From positions 1 through 64,000 of the IMG/VR virus record IMGVR_UViG_3300025655_000026: DNA of 64,000 nt; one strand, written 5' to 3'. Origin of the DNA: a virus. Each line of letters begins with the position of its first letter. Within the stretch, counting starts at the first letter, position 1. The translations under genes and the position numbers were made by a program. This document shows, piece by piece, positions 11,085 through 58,197 of the stretch. Below the pieces are notes generated by a model. The model was given only the letters and a program-made list of their open reading frames with translations. It was not told the DNA's origin and did no database searches.

Positions 11085-11318
11085 ATGCCTGAAAGAGTAA
11101 CTAAAGAAGAAAGAATGATTAGTCTAGCCATTGAAAAGGCTCGCCTAGCAAAAGAAATGCTACAAGAGGAATCTATTCATGAAAGACTTCCTGTTGAAGA
11201 TGATAGCCAAGAAGTGAAAATCACAAAGCCAAAGAATCTACGAGCAGAAAAAATTCAAAATCAAACTGCTAAAGATGAAGGCTACGGATTGGCTGGAGAA
11301 GTTACAGACAATTCGTGA
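11085..11318 (+). CDS. Small charged hypothetical protein
   Basis: About 77 residues, highly charged, with a helical N-terminal half and a polar C-terminal half. ATG 11085 lies ten bases after AGGAG (11070-11074); the ATG at 11076 is too close to that site. The stop TGA at 11316-11318 overlaps the GTG used by the ligase gene. No recognisable family. Confidence 0.6.
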   Translation: MPERVTKEERMISLAIEKARLAKEMLQEESIHERLPVEDDSQEVKITKPKNLRAEKIQNQTAKDEGYGLAGEVTDNS

Positions 11319-13831
11319 TTTCCATGAAACTCTCTAGCATTGAGAAAGATAAGCAACCTTCGGTTGAAATTCTTCGCCTATTTGAAAAGGTTAGAGTCGC
11401 CTATCTTTCTGCTAATGAAGACCCAAAAGAATATGGTAATCGCTGGAGAAGCGCAGTTAAGTTAATAGAAGAATCATATAATGAATATGATTCTGCTGGA
11501 AAAGAAATGAAAAACTTCGTTGAAGAAAAAGACTTAGAGGATAAGGAAGTAAATAATCCTCAAAGCCAAACTGCTAGAAGAGTATATCAAGGAATAAAGC
11601 AACTAAGATATGCTTCGGAATTAGTAGATGACCCATTTGCTAGAAGATTTAAAGAAAATGTATTAGAAGAACTCTTAGGAAATCCCGAAAGCATGATTAA
11701 ATTCGTTCACTATGCTTTGAGAAGTGATTCTAAATCTTTGCCTAAAGAAGTATGGGCGATAAAAGATATGGGAGAAGACACTTTAACTGATGGACTACAA
11801 GGGCTTGATTTGCAGGAAGAAGATATTGCTCTTTACATCATTGAGCATTATGGTGACGGTAAAGATTCAAAGAAAGTAGAAAAAGAAGTTAAACAGGCTT
11901 TAGATATGTTGGAACTTCTTTATTTCTCAAGATATGATAAAGAAGATTATTCAGCATTAAAAGATATTGAAAAGGCTGAAAAATCAGAAAGTGATTTTAT
12001 AATTCCAAATAAACCAATGTATCGCATTTTTGATATTGATGATATTAATGAACTTAAAGGCTTTAGTGGTAATTGGGTCGTTCAAGAAAAATACGATGGT
12101 ATGAGAGTTCAACTCCATAAGATTGATAATAACATCAAAGTCTTTTCTTACAATGAAAAAGATATTACTGATAAGTGTGAAGATATTGTGAAAGAACTTC
12201 GTGCAAAGAAGTTCGGAGATTGTATTCTTGATGCTGAACTTATTTTATTTGATGGAGATGAAGCCCTACATAGAGCAGATACTATTGCTCATGTTTTCAA
12301 AAATAAATATCCCGATGCTAAACTAAGATGTTCAGTATTTGATATTCTAAGACACGAAGAACAGAATCTAGCAGATGAAGAACTAGAAAAGAGAATTACT
12401 ATTTTGTTCAATAATTATTCGGGTGACTCTACTGATGCTTTGGCTTTCCCATCTAAGAAAGATACTAGAATGGCTGACAACTTAAAAGATATTGAAGAGT
12501 ATGCTAAAGAGATTATGGAAATGCCTACGGCAGAAGGAGTTGTCATTAAAGATGCAACCTCTACTTATTATATCGGCACAAAGAAAAATCCAAAGTGGAT
12601 TAAGTGGAAGAAGTTTGTAGACCTAGATTTGATTGTCCTTGATAAAAAGGAAACAAAATCCAATTTATTCTCTTATAGTCTAGGGGCAGGGCCAGTAAAT
12701 GAGGAAAATAAGTTCACTAAAGAAATTGATGGAATCCTATACTTAGATGTGGGTAAGGCACTCAATACTTCAATTGAAGTTGATGTAGGTGACATTGTAA
12801 GAGTTAAGGTAGATGAAGTAAAACCTAGTGAGGATAGATTTACTGTTTATTCAGCAAAGGTCATTGAAGTTCCCGAAGTAGAATATCCCGATAAGATTGT
12901 TACTTTGGAAATGTTGGCTCAAGATACAAAGAAGTCGCTTAACTATAATGTAGAAGCACTTGAAAAAGGAATTAGAATTACTGACCATATTCACGGAGAG
13001 GCCACCATTATTATGAAAGGTGAATTAGATGGTTTTACTATCTATGGCTTTGAACAAAATAATCTAATGTCTAAAAATGCAATTGCTGATTTGAATGTTT
13101 GGAAAGAGGCGGCAGTTGAAATCATGAAAACTAAAAATAGTGAGATGTTTAATGCTATATTCCAATTCCTTAAAGAAAATGGTGAAAAAGATTTAGCAGA
13201 CATTGATGAATTCTTAAAGAAACAAATTCCTTCTTTATACGAAGATACTGTTGGCTCGGATAAAAAAGAACTTGTAAAGTGGCTTAAAGTTAGAAAAGAT
13301 GATGGGATTCAATTTGTAAATAAAAAATTCCAAGCCGACCCAACAAAAATTCTTTCGGAAGATGAAGATGAATTGAATGGTGAAATTCTAAAACAATACA
13401 AAACTCCCGAAGAATATAGAAAAGGCAACTTTAAGATTTATGACCGTGAAGATGGTAACTTGAATGTTGTTATGTCTTTAGGCGATGAAAAAATCAATTG
13501 GTTTATTGATATTGAAGATAGTGTAGATATTTTTGATTTGTTTGGAAAAGCAGGTAAGTTTCCAGCGAGAGTTGCAGATACTATACAAAGAGATAAGGTC
13601 ATTGATTCGGGAGAAGTGGAATTAGGTATTCAAAGAAATGGCTATCATGAATATTTCTTAGAAGGAAATAAATTCCAAACTAAGTTTCATGTTAGATACC
13701 TTCCCGTTAAAGATAAGAAAATGTGGTTAGCATGGACTGGATATAAGCAAAAACCTGCCAAAATAGAAGGGGATGAGGGTTTATGGAATATAAGAGAAGA
13801 TAAATATGCAAATGCCGAAATACCAAAATAA
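11315..13831 (+). CDS. ATP-dependent DNA ligase in the head operon, with extended C-terminus
   Basis: 838 residues. An N-terminal helical domain of about 230 residues precedes a nucleotidyltransferase core: motif I 'EKYDGMR' with the AMP-accepting lysine, motif III-like 'SVFDILR', motif IV 'EGVVIKD' and motif V 'PKWIKWKK', then an OB-fold with 'DVGDIVRVKVDEV'. These seal nicks by the ligase-adenylate route. After the OB-fold are about 300 extra residues; the last 130 ('NWFIDIEDS...FHVRYLPV...MWLAWTGYK') loosely resemble the 3'-phosphoesterase-type beta-barrel of LigD, a weak call. GTG 11315 overlaps the previous stop; ATG 11324 is an alternative. A second, unrelated-looking ligase sits in the replication block at 56.7-58.2 kb, so this one may serve packaged DNA. 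Confidence 0.85.
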   Translation: MISMKLSSIEKDKQPSVEILRLFEKVRVAYLSANEDPKEYGNRWRSAVKLIEESYNEYDSAGKEMKNFVEEKDLEDKEVNNPQSQTARRVYQGIKQLRYASELVDDPFARRFKENVLEELLGNPESMIKFVHYALRSDSKSLPKEVWAIKDMGEDTLTDGLQGLDLQEEDIALYIIEHYGDGKDSKKVEKEVKQALDMLELLYFSRYDKEDYSALKDIEKAEKSESDFIIPNKPMYRIFDIDDINELKGFSGNWVVQEKYDGMRVQLHKIDNNIKVFSYNEKDITDKCEDIVKELRAKKFGDCILDAELILFDGDEALHRADTIAHVFKNKYPDAKLRCSVFDILRHEEQNLADEELEKRITILFNNYSGDSTDALAFPSKKDTRMADNLKDIEEYAKEIMEMPTAEGVVIKDATSTYYIGTKKNPKWIKWKKFVDLDLIVLDKKETKSNLFSYSLGAGPVNEENKFTKEIDGILYLDVGKALNTSIEVDVGDIVRVKVDEVKPSEDRFTVYSAKVIEVPEVEYPDKIVTLEMLAQDTKKSLNYNVEALEKGIRITDHIHGEATIIMKGELDGFTIYGFEQNNLMSKNAIADLNVWKEAAVEIMKTKNSEMFNAIFQFLKENGEKDLADIDEFLKKQIPSLYEDTVGSDKKELVKWLKVRKDDGIQFVNKKFQADPTKILSEDEDELNGEILKQYKTPEEYRKGNFKIYDREDGNLNVVMSLGDEKINWFIDIEDSVDIFDLFGKAGKFPARVADTIQRDKVIDSGEVELGIQRNGYHEYFLEGNKFQTKFHVRYLPVKDKKMWLAWTGYKQKPAKIEGDEGLWNIREDKYANAEIPK

Positions 13832-24011: not shown

Positions 24012-24513
24012 AGTTAGCCTCCTTATTGATTTAATTTCTACTAATTGGTCTAGTTCAGCAACAACTTTACTTTCCGAAGGAGTAATTACTGCTGACCATA
24101 TTACAACTCCTAATTTTGTAGATGTAAGAACTCTAGAAAGAGGTCGTGGAGTTCGCTATGACCTTTCTTCAAAAGATGTGATTATATTCTTTGAAGATAG
24201 CCAAACAATTGATTACCCTACTGTTGGATATGATATACGCAATGAGAGTTATTCTTTTACTATGCACATTCGCACGATTCAAGATGAAAGGGCTGGAGAA
24301 GATGGTGATTTTGGAAAAGATAGGTTAAGAGTTTTATACTTGATAGCCCGTCATGCGCTTGAGCGTAGTAGGAGGGGCTATACCGCAAGTGATGGTTCGT
24401 GTTTCAGTCAATTGTTTGTAGGAAACAGAAGCGAATCAAATGACCGAGCGAAAAGACTCTTTGGCTATAAGGTTACAGTAGAAGCCAAAAGATTTGCAGT
24501 TTCAATACCTTAG
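24004..24513 (+). CDS. Tail completion / terminator-like protein
   Basis: 169 residues with an alpha/beta pattern: helix 1 ('SLLIDLISTNW'), then strands 'KDVIIFFEDSQT', 'ESYSFTMHIRTI', a long helix 'RLRVLYLIARHALERSRR' and a final strand 'YKVTVEAKRFAV'. That order and size fit tail terminator proteins that cap siphovirus tails, and it precedes the tail tube gene as expected. The call rests on pattern and synteny. ATG after a GGGGG run. Confidence 0.6.
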   Translation: MDEVSLLIDLISTNWSSSATTLLSEGVITADHITTPNFVDVRTLERGRGVRYDLSSKDVIIFFEDSQTIDYPTVGYDIRNESYSFTMHIRTIQDERAGEDGDFGKDRLRVLYLIARHALERSRRGYTASDGSCFSQLFVGNRSESNDRAKRLFGYKVTVEAKRFAVSIP

Positions 24514-24540
24514 TTTGTTTGTATGTAAGAGGGAAAAGAA

Positions 24541-26499
24541 ATGACGACTGATTGTGGAGATATATTTTTAGGAAGCGGGGCGAGTATAACATTTGTTCCC
24601 GAAAATGACATTTACTTTCCTTCTACTAATGGCGGAAGTGCTTTTGACGGAGTAACTTCTCTTACCGAAATTACAGCCGCCTCTTCATTTAGCAATGTTT
24701 TTTCTCTTGTAAATAATTTGTATGTTGGTTGTATTATTGAGCGATATGGAGTTGGCTCAAATACATATACTGATGAAGTTACAACTGTTACTTTCAATAG
24801 CGATACTAAGACTGACTATTCGGCTGACTATTTAGTATTCACTATTCTCCCTAGTGATGGTGGGGCGGCTTCAACACACGCATTTTGGTTTGATGATACA
24901 GGTGCAATTTCCGAACCTTCTCATGGTGCTGATGCAAGTAGTTCAGTAGATATTTCCAATGCTGGTGTAATTACAAAAGAAGAATTTGCCGCACTTTTTA
25001 CTACTGCCGTAAATGCGGTTTCAAATATTTCTGCTACGAGAAGTGGTAATGTAGTTACTGTTACTAATACTTATGGTGGAAATAATTCTGCCGCTACAAC
25101 CACAAGCGATTCAACCAATTTATCTCTAGTAAGAACAGTCGCAGGAAACGAATCAGCAACTCCTGCTTCTTTCCAAGATTGCGCTAGAATTACTTCAAAT
25201 ACTGATACTACGATTACTTTTAGTCCTGCACTTACTCCTGCTTCGGGAGATTACTTCGTTATTACTCAATATGGCGCACCTGTTCCTGCACCAACTGATA
25301 CTGCAAAAAGACTTCTTTCCGATGAATGGCTTGGTTTGGTAGAAAGCATTACTTTCCCAACAACAGAAGTTGAAATGAAACAGGTTAATCTTGCTCTTGG
25401 AGGTTCTAGAAATTGGACTTATCAATATAAAGGAATTGAAACCGCTAGCGGTGGAAGTATTAATTTAGTTTCTAATCATGCCGCTTGGCTCTATTATTTC
25501 TTTGGCCGATGCACAGGAGTTAGCGCAACTACTTCTGTTGAAGCAACTACTGACAACTTTACTGCCGCTTCTTCGGGCGCAACTTACATTGATTATGGTT
25601 CAGTTACAGAAACAGGGCCAATCTTCTATCGTTCTGTCGGAGATAAACTTTGTCCTCCAATTGCTAAACACTTAGATAATTACGCTAATATGGATAAATT
25701 AACTCTTCCGATTATTGCTAGTGGAGAAATTGATAATGAAATCACCTATACTTTTGCAGAACAAAACGGAGAACTTCTCCCATCTTTCTCTCTTGAACAA
25801 GTATTCAGCAAATTACCTTCAAGTGATACTTATAGAACTACGACTACTACTTACGAAGATACAAATTTCGTAACGATTGCTAGAGGTAATAGAGTTAATA
25901 CTATGACAATTACTGCTAATGAAAATGAAGAAATTAAAATGACTATGGATTTGTCTACTCGCACAATCCATAATCTTGAAAGCGATGAAGTATATGATGC
26001 TAGAAGAGGAGTTACTGATGAAACTGCTTTCTTTAATTATGATTCCGAATCTAAATTTAGAGAACCTTTCTTTTTCTCAAGTGGCTACTTGAAAGTATTT
26101 GGTGTTCAATTCCTAAAGATTAATTCAATTACTTTAACTATGAATAATTCTCTAACAGAAAGAAGATTTATTGGCGTTGGAAATAAATCAATTCAAGAAG
26201 CAATTCCAGCACAACGAACTTATGAACTACAATTTACAGGTCATGTGACTGATGATAGACTTTATCAAGAATTATTGAATCAAGATGAGAATACTTCGGA
26301 AACGGATGGCCAAATGGTTGAACTTAACTTTTCTAAAGCAAATGGTGAATCATTTACATTAAAGTTTAAAGATTACATGGTTTCTGCTAATAATTTCCCA
26401 TTACCCGATGATAAAGGGCCAGTTGTCGTAGAAACAACAATTATGCCAAGAAACTTAGAAAGTTGCTCAGTAACAACCCATTGGATTTTACAGGGGTGA
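24541..26499 (+). CDS. Major tail tube protein (large, with inserted domains)
   Basis: 652 residues, Thr/Ser/Asn-rich and almost all beta. Core tail-tube features appear after residue 260: 'LLSDEWLGLVESITFPTTEVE', 'NWTYQYKGIETASGG', and C-terminal 'AQRTYELQFTGHVTDDRLYQELL', typical of tube proteins that form stacked hexameric rings. The first 250 residues hold an extra beta-rich domain. Standard tube proteins are 150-350 residues, so this one is enlarged. No sheath gene follows, so the tail is non-contractile. GAGGGAAAAGAAATG sets the start. Confidence 0.75.
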   Translation: MTTDCGDIFLGSGASITFVPENDIYFPSTNGGSAFDGVTSLTEITAASSFSNVFSLVNNLYVGCIIERYGVGSNTYTDEVTTVTFNSDTKTDYSADYLVFTILPSDGGAASTHAFWFDDTGAISEPSHGADASSSVDISNAGVITKEEFAALFTTAVNAVSNISATRSGNVVTVTNTYGGNNSAATTTSDSTNLSLVRTVAGNESATPASFQDCARITSNTDTTITFSPALTPASGDYFVITQYGAPVPAPTDTAKRLLSDEWLGLVESITFPTTEVEMKQVNLALGGSRNWTYQYKGIETASGGSINLVSNHAAWLYYFFGRCTGVSATTSVEATTDNFTAASSGATYIDYGSVTETGPIFYRSVGDKLCPPIAKHLDNYANMDKLTLPIIASGEIDNEITYTFAEQNGELLPSFSLEQVFSKLPSSDTYRTTTTTYEDTNFVTIARGNRVNTMTITANENEEIKMTMDLSTRTIHNLESDEVYDARRGVTDETAFFNYDSESKFREPFFFSSGYLKVFGVQFLKINSITLTMNNSLTERRFIGVGNKSIQEAIPAQRTYELQFTGHVTDDRLYQELLNQDENTSETDGQMVELNFSKANGESFTLKFKDYMVSANNFPLPDDKGPVVVETTIMPRNLESCSVTTHWILQG

Positions 26500-26503
26500 T
26501 TCT

Positions 26504-26626
26504 TTGCCTAGTCGTAGAGAAAAAATAATGCTACAGACAATCGTAGTAGAAACACCTACTCCAGTTCCTAAAAAGAAAGGGCGAAAGCCAAAAAAGGAGG
26601 TTGTTGAAGAACAATCTAACGAATAA
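26504..26626 (+). CDS. Tiny basic protein with AT-hook-like stretch
   Basis: 40 residues from a TTG that follows GGGGTGAT by the same spacing used for other TTG-started genes here; the tail-tube stop is inside that Shine-Dalgarno. The C-terminal half reads 'PKKKGRKPKKE', an AT-hook-like basic core, ending in an acidic tail. It may be a real short gene or a leader for the chaperone genes downstream. The reading frame and ribosome site are visible; function is unknown. Confidence 0.5.
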   Translation: MPSRREKIMLQTIVVETPTPVPKKKGRKPKKEVVEEQSNE

Positions 26627-26674
26627 TATTCCACCAACACCGTTTGTTTGTTTGTTGGTTTTTGAGGTGGAAAT
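26627..26674 (+). terminator. Possible hairpin with T-run before chaperone genes
   Basis: CCAACA (26633-26638) can pair with TGTTGG (26652-26657) around a GTTT-repeat loop, and is followed by TTTTT. The stem is only six pairs, so it could be a weak terminator or attenuator that lowers chaperone-gene expression relative to the tail tube, or merely a low-complexity run. Confidence 0.3.
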
Positions 26675-27040
26675 ATGGAAAAAAAAGTTGTAACTGATAA
26701 GAGTGTGCTATTTGCACTAAATGAGCCTAAGTGTCACTTTATTAAAGTGGCCGAAGACATAGACGAATACCTTAAGGTTTGGGTCAAAGAACCTACATGG
26801 TTAGAAGTTGATAAAGCCATGAATAGCATGATGAAGATTGATGCTAAGAGTCAAAACTTTGACCTTGACCTAAATGCAATGTATCGTTTTATGGTTGAAA
26901 ACTTTGTTGTAAAGACTGAACCAATGCTTTCAACCCTTGATATTCTCCGTTTGAGTCCTTATGTTGGAAATCAACTAAAGGAAATTTTACCTAATCCATT
27001 TGATGCTTTTAGCGAGGATGAGGAAAAAAACGAAAATTGA
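26675..27040 (+). CDS. Tail assembly chaperone, G-like
   Basis: 121 residues. Located between tail tube and tape measure, where siphoviruses encode the paired chaperones that coat the tape measure during tail assembly. The sequence is mixed helical ('LDLNAMYRFMVENFVVKTEP', 'LDILRLSPYVGNQLKEIL'). Near its end the zero-frame codons GAA AAA AAC contain the heptamer A AAA AAC (27025-27031), a classic -1 slip sequence. The downstream frame reached by a -1 shift is the next gene, as in the lambda G/GT system. GAGGTGG precedes the ATG. Confidence 0.75.
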   Translation: MEKKVVTDKSVLFALNEPKCHFIKVAEDIDEYLKVWVKEPTWLEVDKAMNSMMKIDAKSQNFDLDLNAMYRFMVENFVVKTEPMLSTLDILRLSPYVGNQLKEILPNPFDAFSEDEEKNEN

Positions 27041-27246
27041 GGGCGGCAATTAAAGGAGGTAAAGCCGAACCTTCTACTGTTTCCCTCATAATTGTATATA
27101 CATTAGCAAAGGCTTTAGGGATAAGCCCCCTGCAAGTGTATGAGATGCCAGCCGATTTGGTTCTAAGTATGTTAAGCATTCATAAGATATTTGAAGAATT
27201 AAAGGCAGAAGAAATTGAAAAAGCCACTAAGAGTTTAAAGAGGTGA
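27022..27246 (+). CDS. Tail assembly chaperone, T-like (probably -1 frameshift product)
   Basis: The frame opens at 27022, after a TGA at 27019-27021, so the slip heptamer at 27025-27031 lies within its open stretch. Read after a -1 shift it continues with 'RKLRAAIKGGKAEPSTVSLI' and about 65 more residues, including 'KALGISPLQVYEMPADLVLSML'. An independent TTG start at 27037 overlapping the G stop is also possible. Purine-rich GAGGATGAGG just upstream of the slip could act as the stimulatory Shine-Dalgarno-like element, and a CGGC/GCCG (27044/27064) mini-stem lies downstream. Confidence 0.7.
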   Translation, partial: GKKRKLRAAIKGGKAEPSTVSLIIVYTLAKALGISPLQVYEMPADLVLSMLSIHKIFEELKAEEIEKATKSLKR

Positions 27247-27252
27247 GAATAA

Positions 27253-28749
27253 ATGGCAACGAATCAAGATATTGTAAATACATTAAGAGAATTAATAGAT
27301 TTACAAAAAGGATATTCAAATGCCGTAAAAGAAACCTCAAAAGAATTAACTGCTCAAGAAAGAATTGCGAAAAGAAGAAATGAAAAAGCAGAAGAATATA
27401 ATACTCGTTTAGGAAAAACAATTGCTACATTAACTGCGGTTGATGGAAAAATGGGTAAGTTCAAACGATTTTCATATGGTTTCTTACCAAAAGGTTTCTT
27501 TCGTGCGATGAACGCAACTGCTTCAAGTTTAGAATCAATAGATATTGCTGTTGGAAGAGTTAGAAAAGGAATAGAAAAAACTAGTAAAATAAAATCTTTG
27601 TTTGGTAGAACTATGACTATGGGTTTTAAAGATTTTGATAAAATGGGTTCTCAAATACGGGCGGCACAAACTGCTCAAGAAACTTACTATGGTAGAAGCA
27701 CTAGTGCCGCATTTAATCGTAGAGGTAGACAATATTACATGACCCCCGATGCCGCAGAAAGGCAAATGATTGGTCGCCAAAAGGCTGAAAAAACACTTAG
27801 AAGAAAAAGAGCATTAGAAGTAGGCGGAATGATTACTGGAATAAGAAAAAGAGAAGAACCTCTAAGTTTACAGAATATGAAAAAAGCGGCAGTTAAATTC
27901 TATGAAGGAATAAAAAATACTGATTGGGGAAAGATTATAAATTTAACAAAAAAATATGTCATACGGGCGGCAATTCTATTTACAGGTGTAGTCTTTAGAG
28001 CCGTTGGTATAGTAGTTCTTTTGTATATGCTATTCAAAGGATTTTGGCCACAAATCAAAGAAAGCGTGATGGCCGCATGGGAAGCAATAAAGCAAGTTGG
28101 GATGATTGCTCTCGCTGGATTAAATATGGTTTGGGAAGGATTAAAAGGAGTTTGGAATGCTTTCTTTGGAGATGGCGATTTAGTTTCTTTAATTGATAGT
28201 TTATTAACAATTGCTGGTGGATTACTTATTTTTGCTGGAGGTCTTGTAATAACTGCCTTGACTGCTGGATTAGTTTTGCTTGGTGGCCTACTTATGGAAA
28301 CGGGCGCAAGATTACTTACCTTTTTGGGTAATTTTTTCAGTAAAACAGGGTCTTTGGTGAACAAAATCGCTACTACTATTGCGGCTATTCTTGGAGTCGT
28401 TATGTTTATTGTTTCGGGCGCATGGGCGGCAGTAATTGCGGCCGCTATTGGATATTATGTCGCTAAGAAATTTGCAGGATTTTTGGGCTTCCATGCTGAC
28501 GGAGGAACAGTTACTTCTCCTTTACAGATTGTTGGTGAGCGTGGCCCTGAAATTGCCGCTTTACCGAGAGGAACTAAAGTTATGACAAATACTCAATCAA
28601 AGAATATGGTTGGTGGAAATACTTTCAACATTACAATTAATGCTAGAGATACTTCGGATGCGGAATTAAGAAGAGTCGCTGATAAAATAGGACAAATGAT
28701 TAACGGTAAGATTAACAGAACTACTTCTTCTAGAACATTAGGTGCGTGA
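27253..28749 (+). CDS. Tape measure protein
   Basis: 498 residues. A charged helical N-terminal half is followed by strongly hydrophobic helices (about 230-260, 315-345, 375-410) and a C-terminal 'HADGGTVTSPLQIVGERGPE' with 'ALPRGTKVMTN', the ending typical of many phage tape measures. The protein sets tail length and passes through the tail at DNA ejection; membrane-active segments fit that role. It is short for a tape measure, so a short tail is expected (inference). GAGGTGAGAATAAATG start. Confidence 0.9.
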   Translation: MATNQDIVNTLRELIDLQKGYSNAVKETSKELTAQERIAKRRNEKAEEYNTRLGKTIATLTAVDGKMGKFKRFSYGFLPKGFFRAMNATASSLESIDIAVGRVRKGIEKTSKIKSLFGRTMTMGFKDFDKMGSQIRAAQTAQETYYGRSTSAAFNRRGRQYYMTPDAAERQMIGRQKAEKTLRRKRALEVGGMITGIRKREEPLSLQNMKKAAVKFYEGIKNTDWGKIINLTKKYVIRAAILFTGVVFRAVGIVVLLYMLFKGFWPQIKESVMAAWEAIKQVGMIALAGLNMVWEGLKGVWNAFFGDGDLVSLIDSLLTIAGGLLIFAGGLVITALTAGLVLLGGLLMETGARLLTFLGNFFSKTGSLVNKIATTIAAILGVVMFIVSGAWAAVIAAAIGYYVAKKFAGFLGFHADGGTVTSPLQIVGERGPEIAALPRGTKVMTNTQSKNMVGGNTFNITINARDTSDAELRRVADKIGQMINGKINRTTSSRTLGA

Positions 28750-56667: not shown

Positions 56668-58197
56668 CTAAGCCATTCTTTCTATATCTTCTAAGGTATT
56701 AATATCTGCAACATATTTATCATCTCTAATTCTTTCCATTCTTGGAAATCTTAATCCATAATTACCATTCGCATCAGTTGAAATTAAATCAGCCTTAACC
56801 TGTAAAACAATTCTAGGTAAGAAAGTAAATTTACCATTATTGAAACTTTCAACATTGCGTTTTAATTGATTCGTTAAAGTAACTAATTGTTGGTCACTAA
56901 ATCCTGTTCCTACTTTTCCTATGGAAGTAAACCCTGTTAATGATTTAACTCCGACTTCAAAGGTAGAGAACACATTTGATTTCTTACCTTCACCATATTC
57001 GGCTGATAGAATAACAACATCAAGTTCAATTCTAGGAGGTTTGTATTTAGCCCATCCTTGACTTCTTTTACCTGCTTCATAAGGAAGAGAGGCATCCTTA
57101 ACAATAATACCTTCAAATCCATCGTTGATGGCATTATTGTAAAAAGCGAGAACATCTTCTCCTTCGGTCATTCTATGTGCTTGATTAGGAACACTAGAGA
57201 AACGCTCTAATCGTTCTCTATAAGATAAGTTCATTGTAGTTTCATTGCCCCACTTCAAACAGTCAAAGATAACCCACTTGACTAAAACCTTACTTACTGC
57301 TTCTTGAGTATTCTTAGAATGAACTCTAGTAGCCATGTGTTTGTGTTCAAGAGGATAGCCATGAGAATCTACTGGATAAATCTCTCCATCAAATATTGCT
57401 TCTTCTACTGCATATCCTTGAAGAATCTCAACTACATCAGGAAATTGATTTGTTACTACACTTCCTTTTCTATTGAAGATAATAACTGAATTACCTTTCT
57501 TATGAATTTGATACCTATTACCATCATATTTGTAATCTACAATCTTATCCTTTGGCCACTTCGCCATAGGAATTTCTTTTGCTAACATAGGTGAAATGAA
57601 CTTACCATGAACTAAATTCATTGGAGGCTCATTCCCCATTTCATAATAAGATACAACATTAGAAAGGCTATTGAAATTACAATGTTTCTTAGTATCGGTT
57701 AATTTCTTATTATAGTGTTTAGCGACTGCCTTTTCACAAATACCCGAATTAATACCATTTCTAGGCACTCTTAACCAATAGCGAATAAACCACCTTCTTT
57801 CTAATGACGACATTTCAAAAATCGCATCTTTTACTAGTTCATAAGAAGTGCTGGAAATACTAGCACAATCTAATTCTAGAAGTCTAACAATATTTTTCAA
57901 AGAAGAATGAGTAGTTGTTTCTTTACTAGATTGAAGATAATAAACTGCATCACCTAAATCGTTATGCGCTGAATAATATTCTTCTATCTCATCATCAAAT
58001 ACTTCAAACATTTTAGCCATCCATTTCTTTGCTTTGGCTAAACCAATATTATTAGATTCTAAGTCTAAAGAAAGAATCTTAACTAAACTCTCTTTATCTT
58101 CAAAATTCCCCAATGCCGTTGAAATCAACTTGACCTGTTGAGTTGGTTGTTTCAAATCTGTTGCTTCTAATAGTCTGCTCATTGTCATCCAATTCAT
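56668..58197 (-). CDS. ATP-dependent DNA ligase (replication-type)
   Basis: 509 residues. Helical N-terminal DNA-binding domain (1-200) and adenylation core with motif I 'DYKYDGNRYQI' (Lys-x-Asp-Gly), 'AIFDGEI' (motif III), 'VKWVIFDCLKW', 'EGIIVKD' (motif IV) and 'GWAKYKP' (motif V), then an OB fold with 'GLRFPRMERIRDDK'. Close in plan and length to archaeal LIG1-type ligases, which join Okazaki fragments. Distinct from the ligase in the head operon at 11.3-13.8 kb. Its first 98 bases overlap the upstream small gene. Confidence 0.95.
   Translation of the reverse strand: MNWMTMSRLLEATDLKQPTQQVKLISTALGNFEDKESLVKILSLDLESNNIGLAKAKKWMAKMFEVFDDEIEEYYSAHNDLGDAVYYLQSSKETTTHSSLKNIVRLLELDCASISSTSYELVKDAIFEMSSLERRWFIRYWLRVPRNGINSGICEKAVAKHYNKKLTDTKKHCNFNSLSNVVSYYEMGNEPPMNLVHGKFISPMLAKEIPMAKWPKDKIVDYKYDGNRYQIHKKGNSVIIFNRKGSVVTNQFPDVVEILQGYAVEEAIFDGEIYPVDSHGYPLEHKHMATRVHSKNTQEAVSKVLVKWVIFDCLKWGNETTMNLSYRERLERFSSVPNQAHRMTEGEDVLAFYNNAINDGFEGIIVKDASLPYEAGKRSQGWAKYKPPRIELDVVILSAEYGEGKKSNVFSTFEVGVKSLTGFTSIGKVGTGFSDQQLVTLTNQLKRNVESFNNGKFTFLPRIVLQVKADLISTDANGNYGLRFPRMERIRDDKYVADINTLEDIERMA

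Follow-up and report, generated by a model that had tools for sequence, protein, structure and literature searches.

Comparative evidence for a programmed −1 ribosomal frameshift between the tail assembly chaperone genes of a magrovirus-like virus, and for a probable −2 variant among its relatives

The window analysed here, a stretch of 64,000 nt of the 77,516-base IMG/VR virus record IMGVR_UViG_3300025655_000026, carries two overlapping frames, G and T, which sit between the genes for the tail tube and the tape measure protein as in the G/GT layout. The features of the locus are as follows.

24541..26499, + strand: tail tube protein gene, the upstream neighbour (Pfam Phage_tube_2, 3.9e-13; PHROG minor tail protein, 1e-14)
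26675..27040, + strand: G, tail assembly chaperone of 121 aa in the zero frame (PHROG tail assembly chaperone, 2.3e-5)
27014..27017, + strand: SD-like GAGG within GAGGATGA, 7 nt 5′ of the heptamer (anti-SD duplex peak; synonymous redraw test)
27025..27031, + strand: slippery heptamer A_AAA_AAC, in the zero frame of the G ORF
27031..27246, + strand: T, the −1 frame after the predicted shift, 71 aa followed by TGA (27244-27246) (open frame)
27038..27088, + strand: predicted 3′ stem-loop after a 6-nt spacer from AAC (fold energy, covariation in relatives)
27253..28749, + strand: tape measure protein gene, the downstream neighbour (PHROG tail length tape measure, 9.4e-8)

The end of G reads GAG GAA AAA AAC GAA AAT TGA (27020-27040), and the −1 frame, open from 27022 to 27243, closes just 5′ of the tape measure ORF; the predicted G-T fusion would comprise 119 + 71 = 190 aa. 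Both the heptamer in the zero frame and the opening of the −1 frame at 27022, on which the original prediction of a lambda-like frameshift site was built, were confirmed in the sequence.

Relatives were collected by IMG/VR scans with G, from which the loci of the best 80 of 214, the best 80 of 248 and the best 80 of 272 confirmed relatives were taken, by one DNA-pattern scan and by one GTDB contig scan. Including the window, 277 sequences were examined, of which 276 contain G (L068, a cut contig, does not), giving 186 distinct junctions, with second copies of the same places (L001, L065-L067, L069) left out before counting and the halovirus loci L126-L128 excluded from the counts. Tests on silent sites and folding used 97 clusters of <85% identity. 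A tblastn search with G against 50,697 phage records gave no match at E<=1, and the GTDB contig scan found the G/T cassette at a single locus (L125), on the 10.5 kb contig NZMJ01000011.1 of a Maricaulis MAG; as this is probably a mis-binned virus contig, it gives no host.

Of the 186 distinct junctions, 173 have T at −1, and for these the predicted lambda-like layout with its slippery heptamer holds; 12 have T in the −2/+1 frame, and in one T is largely deleted. In this last junction (L136) T is cut to 12 codons past the G stop by an apparent internal deletion with the GGGAAAC site intact; either the virus lacks T or the assembly is at fault there. An in-frame X_XXY_YYZ is present inside the overlap in all 173 junctions with T at −1, the conservation that had been proposed as a check; a relative in which synonymous change destroys the heptamer while the −1 frame is kept, named beforehand as the observation that would speak against the site, was seen in 0 of the 173. 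Elsewhere in the G bodies of the 97 clusters the pattern occupies 67 of 9982 codon positions (0.67%). The heptamers of the 173 junctions are mostly AAAAAAC (87) and GGGAAAC (48), followed by GGGAAAA and AAAAAAG (12 each), AAAAAAA (6), and GGGAAAT and GGGAAAG (4 each). As a bare string A_AAA_AAC occurs 27 times in the AT-rich window against 40.9 copies expected, and what goes beyond chance is the place of the heptamer and its conservation, not its presence as a string. A single branch separates the GGGAAA type from the rest in the 111-row tree, so that a whole slippery site was swapped for another valid one, and in L027, L030 and L035 the G stop is displaced and the heptamer stays put.

These sites bear directly on two other ways of making T. 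Transcriptional slippage on the A run, producing mRNAs of altered length, would find runs of 6-7 A at the A-type sites of 117 of 185 sequences; in the other 68, with G-type sites, no run exceeds 4 and the two frames stand in the same relation, and the SD-like motif and the stem-loop described below point to the ribosome, so that this explanation is extremely improbable. Alternatively, ribosomes could re-initiate close to the G stop and make T as a separate protein; the start codon in the window would be a TTG at 27037 that overlaps the TGA, and the SD-like motif could serve such a start. Of the 173 −1 relatives, 99 indeed have a T-frame ATG, GTG or TTG at −16 to +30 relative to the G stop, 52 of them at position −1, yet ATG accounts for only 44 of 173 within that range and 28 of 173 have none of the three from −16 to +60. 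Re-initiation moreover has no need of the −1 heptamer that all 173 retain, and the homology of T extends 5′ of any such start, up to the heptamer, which leaves re-initiation very unlikely.

Programmed −1 frameshifting by the ribosome, the preferred reading, might be aided by the sequence upstream of the heptamer, which the original prediction had described as a purine run. The segment GAGGATGAGG (27014-27023) is not a pure purine run because of one T inside, but a role as an SD-like stimulator is suggested by its synonymous codons. Pairing with an archaeal anti-SD sequence, which we assumed for this test, is strongest at the SD-like motif and exceeds that of synonymous redraws in each of the 97 clusters. 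Measured against a background codon usage taken from neighbouring genes, the Thr before GGA_AAC is encoded by ACG in 22/22 G-type clusters (5.8% background) and the Asn of the A-type heptamer by AAC in 47/47 clusters (26.7% background); within the upstream motif, Glu is GAG in 41/42 and Gly GGG in 11/15 cases for the A-type, and in 7/8 and 27/29, respectively, for the G-type. Rare synonymous codons thus appear to serve the frameshift signal. GGAGG or GGGGAG is found shortly 5′ of the heptamers of the haloviruses HVTV-1 (L126), HCTV-1 (L127) and HCTV-5 (L128) as well, and an SD-like stimulator may therefore be a general feature of tail chaperone genes in archaeal viruses.

A downstream stem-loop, missed in the earlier reading, was found here by folding and covariation as an additional element. 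In the window its helices are 27038-27043/27083-27088, 27045-27048/27078-27081 and 27054-27060/27069-27075, with the TGA of G in the base of the stem, and the fold (MFE −19.6 kcal/mol, z −3.57) was equalled by 0 of 200 shuffles. Synonymous shuffles that preserve the T protein gave a mean z of −3.19 for the A-type (p<=0.05 in 48/54 clusters), −3.34 for the −2 class (5/6) and −1.40 for the G-type (16/37), and the stem-loop, weaker in the G-type, appears to be missing in several of its lineages. Scanned by windows, the A-type shows its strongest fold signal at +8 (mean z −2.57), against a background inside G that is itself nonzero (mean z down to −1.72, A-type, window −260). Across 52 A-type sequences the named helices hold 119 double-change cells compared with 47.6 after shuffling (0/500) and 32-81 when the helices are slid; shuffles and slides served as the controls, as the structure had been picked after viewing single folds of the same sequences, which biases the pairing of the cells towards it. 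Together, the synonymous-shuffle and double-change results mark the A-type stem-loop as an RNA structure under selection. RNAalifold predicted no pairs on the 52-sequence A-type alignment, since the register of the stem slides between sequences, and Rfam had no match over window positions 26000-28000. At the halovirus loci HVTV-1, HCTV-1 and HCTV-5 the synonymous test detected no stem-loop (z 0.55, −0.31 and 0.84).

On the protein level, G matches phrog_25860 in 70 of 73 relatives, and for T a match with phrog_9001 (tail assembly chaperone) is seen in 56 of 72, at best with 2.5e-11, while the T of the window itself has no PHROG match at E 0.1. The model of G (pLDDT 83.9) finds the HHTV-2 tail assembly chaperone by Foldseek (E 1.1e-7), a weak fold match with Mu FS-gp41 (E 0.064) and, by VIA-align, weak similarity to YqbN and the HK97 chaperone (3klu, Z 6.2; HK97 2ob9, Z 3.7); Foldseek of G against the PDB gave nothing at E<=0.001. 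T, a protein conserved among the relatives, is modelled with confidence as a helical domain (pLDDT 95.4), its best BFVD match being an unnamed protein (E 1.2e-3). Aligned by hhalign with the G of halovirus HCTV-2 (94.3%, 83 columns, 30% identity), G matches up to the last residues before the predicted A_AAA_AAC of HCTV-2 itself and is, judged by this alignment, homologous to it. By homology, G and T are thus predicted tail assembly chaperones.

Comparison of the relatives, with the layout, the site, the upstream motif and the stem-loop conserved and the chaperones homologous, makes programmed −1 ribosomal frameshifting at the G/T junction highly probable. The slip itself, how efficient it is, what each of the three elements does and how the products act in assembly we infer as follows. 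Most ribosomes would read G to its stop at 27038; for a minority, the SD-like GAGG behind would pair with the 16S rRNA and the stem-loop ahead would hold the ribosome, so that the two tRNAs on A_AAA_AAC could move back by one base and T would be read to yield the G-T fusion. If lambda is a guide, many copies of G and few of G-T would coat the tape measure protein, with the T part recruiting tail-tube subunits. Counted against the −1 model are the 7-nt SD spacing, the weak or absent stem-loop of the G-type and its absence by the test used from the three haloviruses, the nonzero fold background in G and the behaviour of A_AAA_AAC in E. coli, where it is much less shift-prone than A_AAA_AAG (PMC5009743, in part).

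The 12 junctions with T in the −2/+1 frame (L093, L096, L097, L103, L106, L107, L119, L202, L258, L261, L277 and L282) all read GAA AAA AAG GAY RAT stop, and the −1 frame closes early in the seven that were inspected. In L202 the T-frame ATG is replaced by ACA and a second ATG directly adjoins the SD-like motif, so that a start codon does not explain this class. Each of the 12 carries A7 and then a G, which is just enough for both Lys-tRNAs to re-pair two bases back; AAC, the usual codon of the −1 relatives, would not allow this. From the junction sequences, −2 frameshifting in these relatives is judged probable. A +1 shift, in which the P-site AAA slips forward and AGG is read next, leads into the identical frame, is in general the commoner route into it and has been predicted for HSTV-2 (PMC5009743, in part). 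It does not require AAG rather than AAC, however, even if the Arg (AGG) that it yields may be favoured, and the SD-like motif is spaced as in the −1 relatives, at variance with the 3-nt spacing of +1 sites, which makes the +1 route rather unlikely. A final G of the heptamer occurs with T at −1 as well (16/173), so that AAG is not exclusive to the −2 class.

With −2 as the probable shift, the class would document a change in the size of the slip. In the −2/+1 class the distance to the T frame is shorter by one base than in −1 relatives such as L219 and L242, and in the HIV cassette a shorter spacer raises the ratio of −2 to −1 (PMC5009743, in part). Constraining the class to one clade was rejected (p-AU 0.0008; 72 rows, 11 of the class, with L282 and L190 left out of the tree), in a test that G-T recombination or long branches could mislead, and the same tree has at least 2 frame changes on supported branches, so that, barring recombination, the frame changed more than once. 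An independent-pairs test of frame against the last base of the heptamer found two pairs, both in the same direction and not significant. On balance, we favour with some reserve that the frameshift distance evolves within one gene family of archaeal viruses, the cassette of SD-like motif, slippery site and stem-loop having switched between −1 and −2 on more than one occasion, with both proteins kept, through a one-base change of the spacer coupled to an A-site codon that becomes AAG. If true, archaea would gain what is to our knowledge their first proposed case of −2 frameshifting, none having been found in the literature searched, and the −1 and −2 relatives would offer natural pairs for testing what determines how far a ribosome slips.

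The virus itself is magrovirus-like by gene set. Its split PolB, RFC small subunit, Hef/Xpf-like nuclease, ATP ligase, GroEL, HMG-CoA-lyase-like gene and HK97-type head genes, with morphogenesis and replication genes in two blocks of opposite direction, agree with the ICTV profile of Aoguangviridae/Magrovirales (PMC10768690). The best NCBIfam model of the ATP ligase is haloarchaeal LigA, with a score below the cut-off of the model. Two genes have ATP-dependent DNA ligase domains (window 11315-13831 and 56668-58197), the former an 838-aa ORF amid the head genes. Archaeal viruses account for 11 of the 11 records matched by the MCP in the phage collection, and the archaeal nature of the virus is supported by gene content and these matches rather than by a link to a host. 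TerL and a part of PolB also match many bacterial phages and both are therefore weak guides to the host; the matches listed for GroEL are bacterial phages and records that are either bacterial or unnamed. Marine archaea are thought to be the hosts, and Poseidoniales would be the host according to the literature.

Directly 5′ of the G start lies a conserved inverted repeat, TTCCACCAACA..GTTTGTTTGTTTG..TGTTGG..GGTGGAA (window 26629-26677), the outer arm of which can pair with the SD of G itself. Located by its first arm in 91 clusters, the repeat has as inner arm CCAACA (68), CTAACA (17), TCAACA (3) or CTTACA (1), with a complementary partner in 89 of the 91, and thus covaries; the copy in the window folds no better than shuffles (z −0.05). 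It is possibly a translational control hairpin. A shorter similar repeat, CTTA-GTTTGTTTGTATG-TAAG, is seen just 5′ of the tail tube start (window 24509-24544).

Among known systems, the slippery site of lambda is G_GGA_AAG, and unlike lambda the window has an SD-like motif and a stem-loop, and the last base of the heptamer is mostly C in the window and its relatives. Layout, presumed role and the −1 shift are shared with lambda G/GT (PMC5009743, in part). The E. coli dnaX cassette combines SD, slippery site and stem-loop in the same order as found here, but in an unrelated gene, with AAG in place of AAC and with the SD at the 9-14 nt of bacterial −1 sites instead of 7 nt, +1 sites having 3 nt (PMC5009743, in part). 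The tail chaperone of phage Mu, from a different sequence family, uses a −2 frameshift (PMC5009743, in part), which is probably also how T is reached in the 12 exceptional relatives. For archaea, the evidence of programmed frameshifting is thin, with one reported cellular case and predictions in a few haloviruses counted in one review (PMC8211752, in part), and the literature searched held no frameshift report for magroviruses or Poseidoniales. The view that −1 shifting is little shown for archaeal viruses nevertheless needs amending, since predictions are in print for the tailed viruses HVTV-1, HCTV-1, HCTV-2 and HCTV-5 (PMC5009743, PMC8211752, both in part). HCTV-2 (Saparoviridae) shares with the window the order of tail tube, G/GT and tape measure genes and the placement of A_AAA_AAC within G, at its end, its chaperone being a joined two-piece CDS in GenBank, and differs in a stop directly after AAC and a haloarchaeal host. 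With selection visible on the site and on the stimulators either side of it, this large family of uncultured viruses suggests that the rules followed by archaeal ribosomes are of the bacterial type. Given the homology with HCTV-2 and its predicted A_AAA_AAC shift, the −1 shift of tail chaperones is of a known kind; the magrovirus member is new, and the stimulators as well as the −2 class add to what was known.
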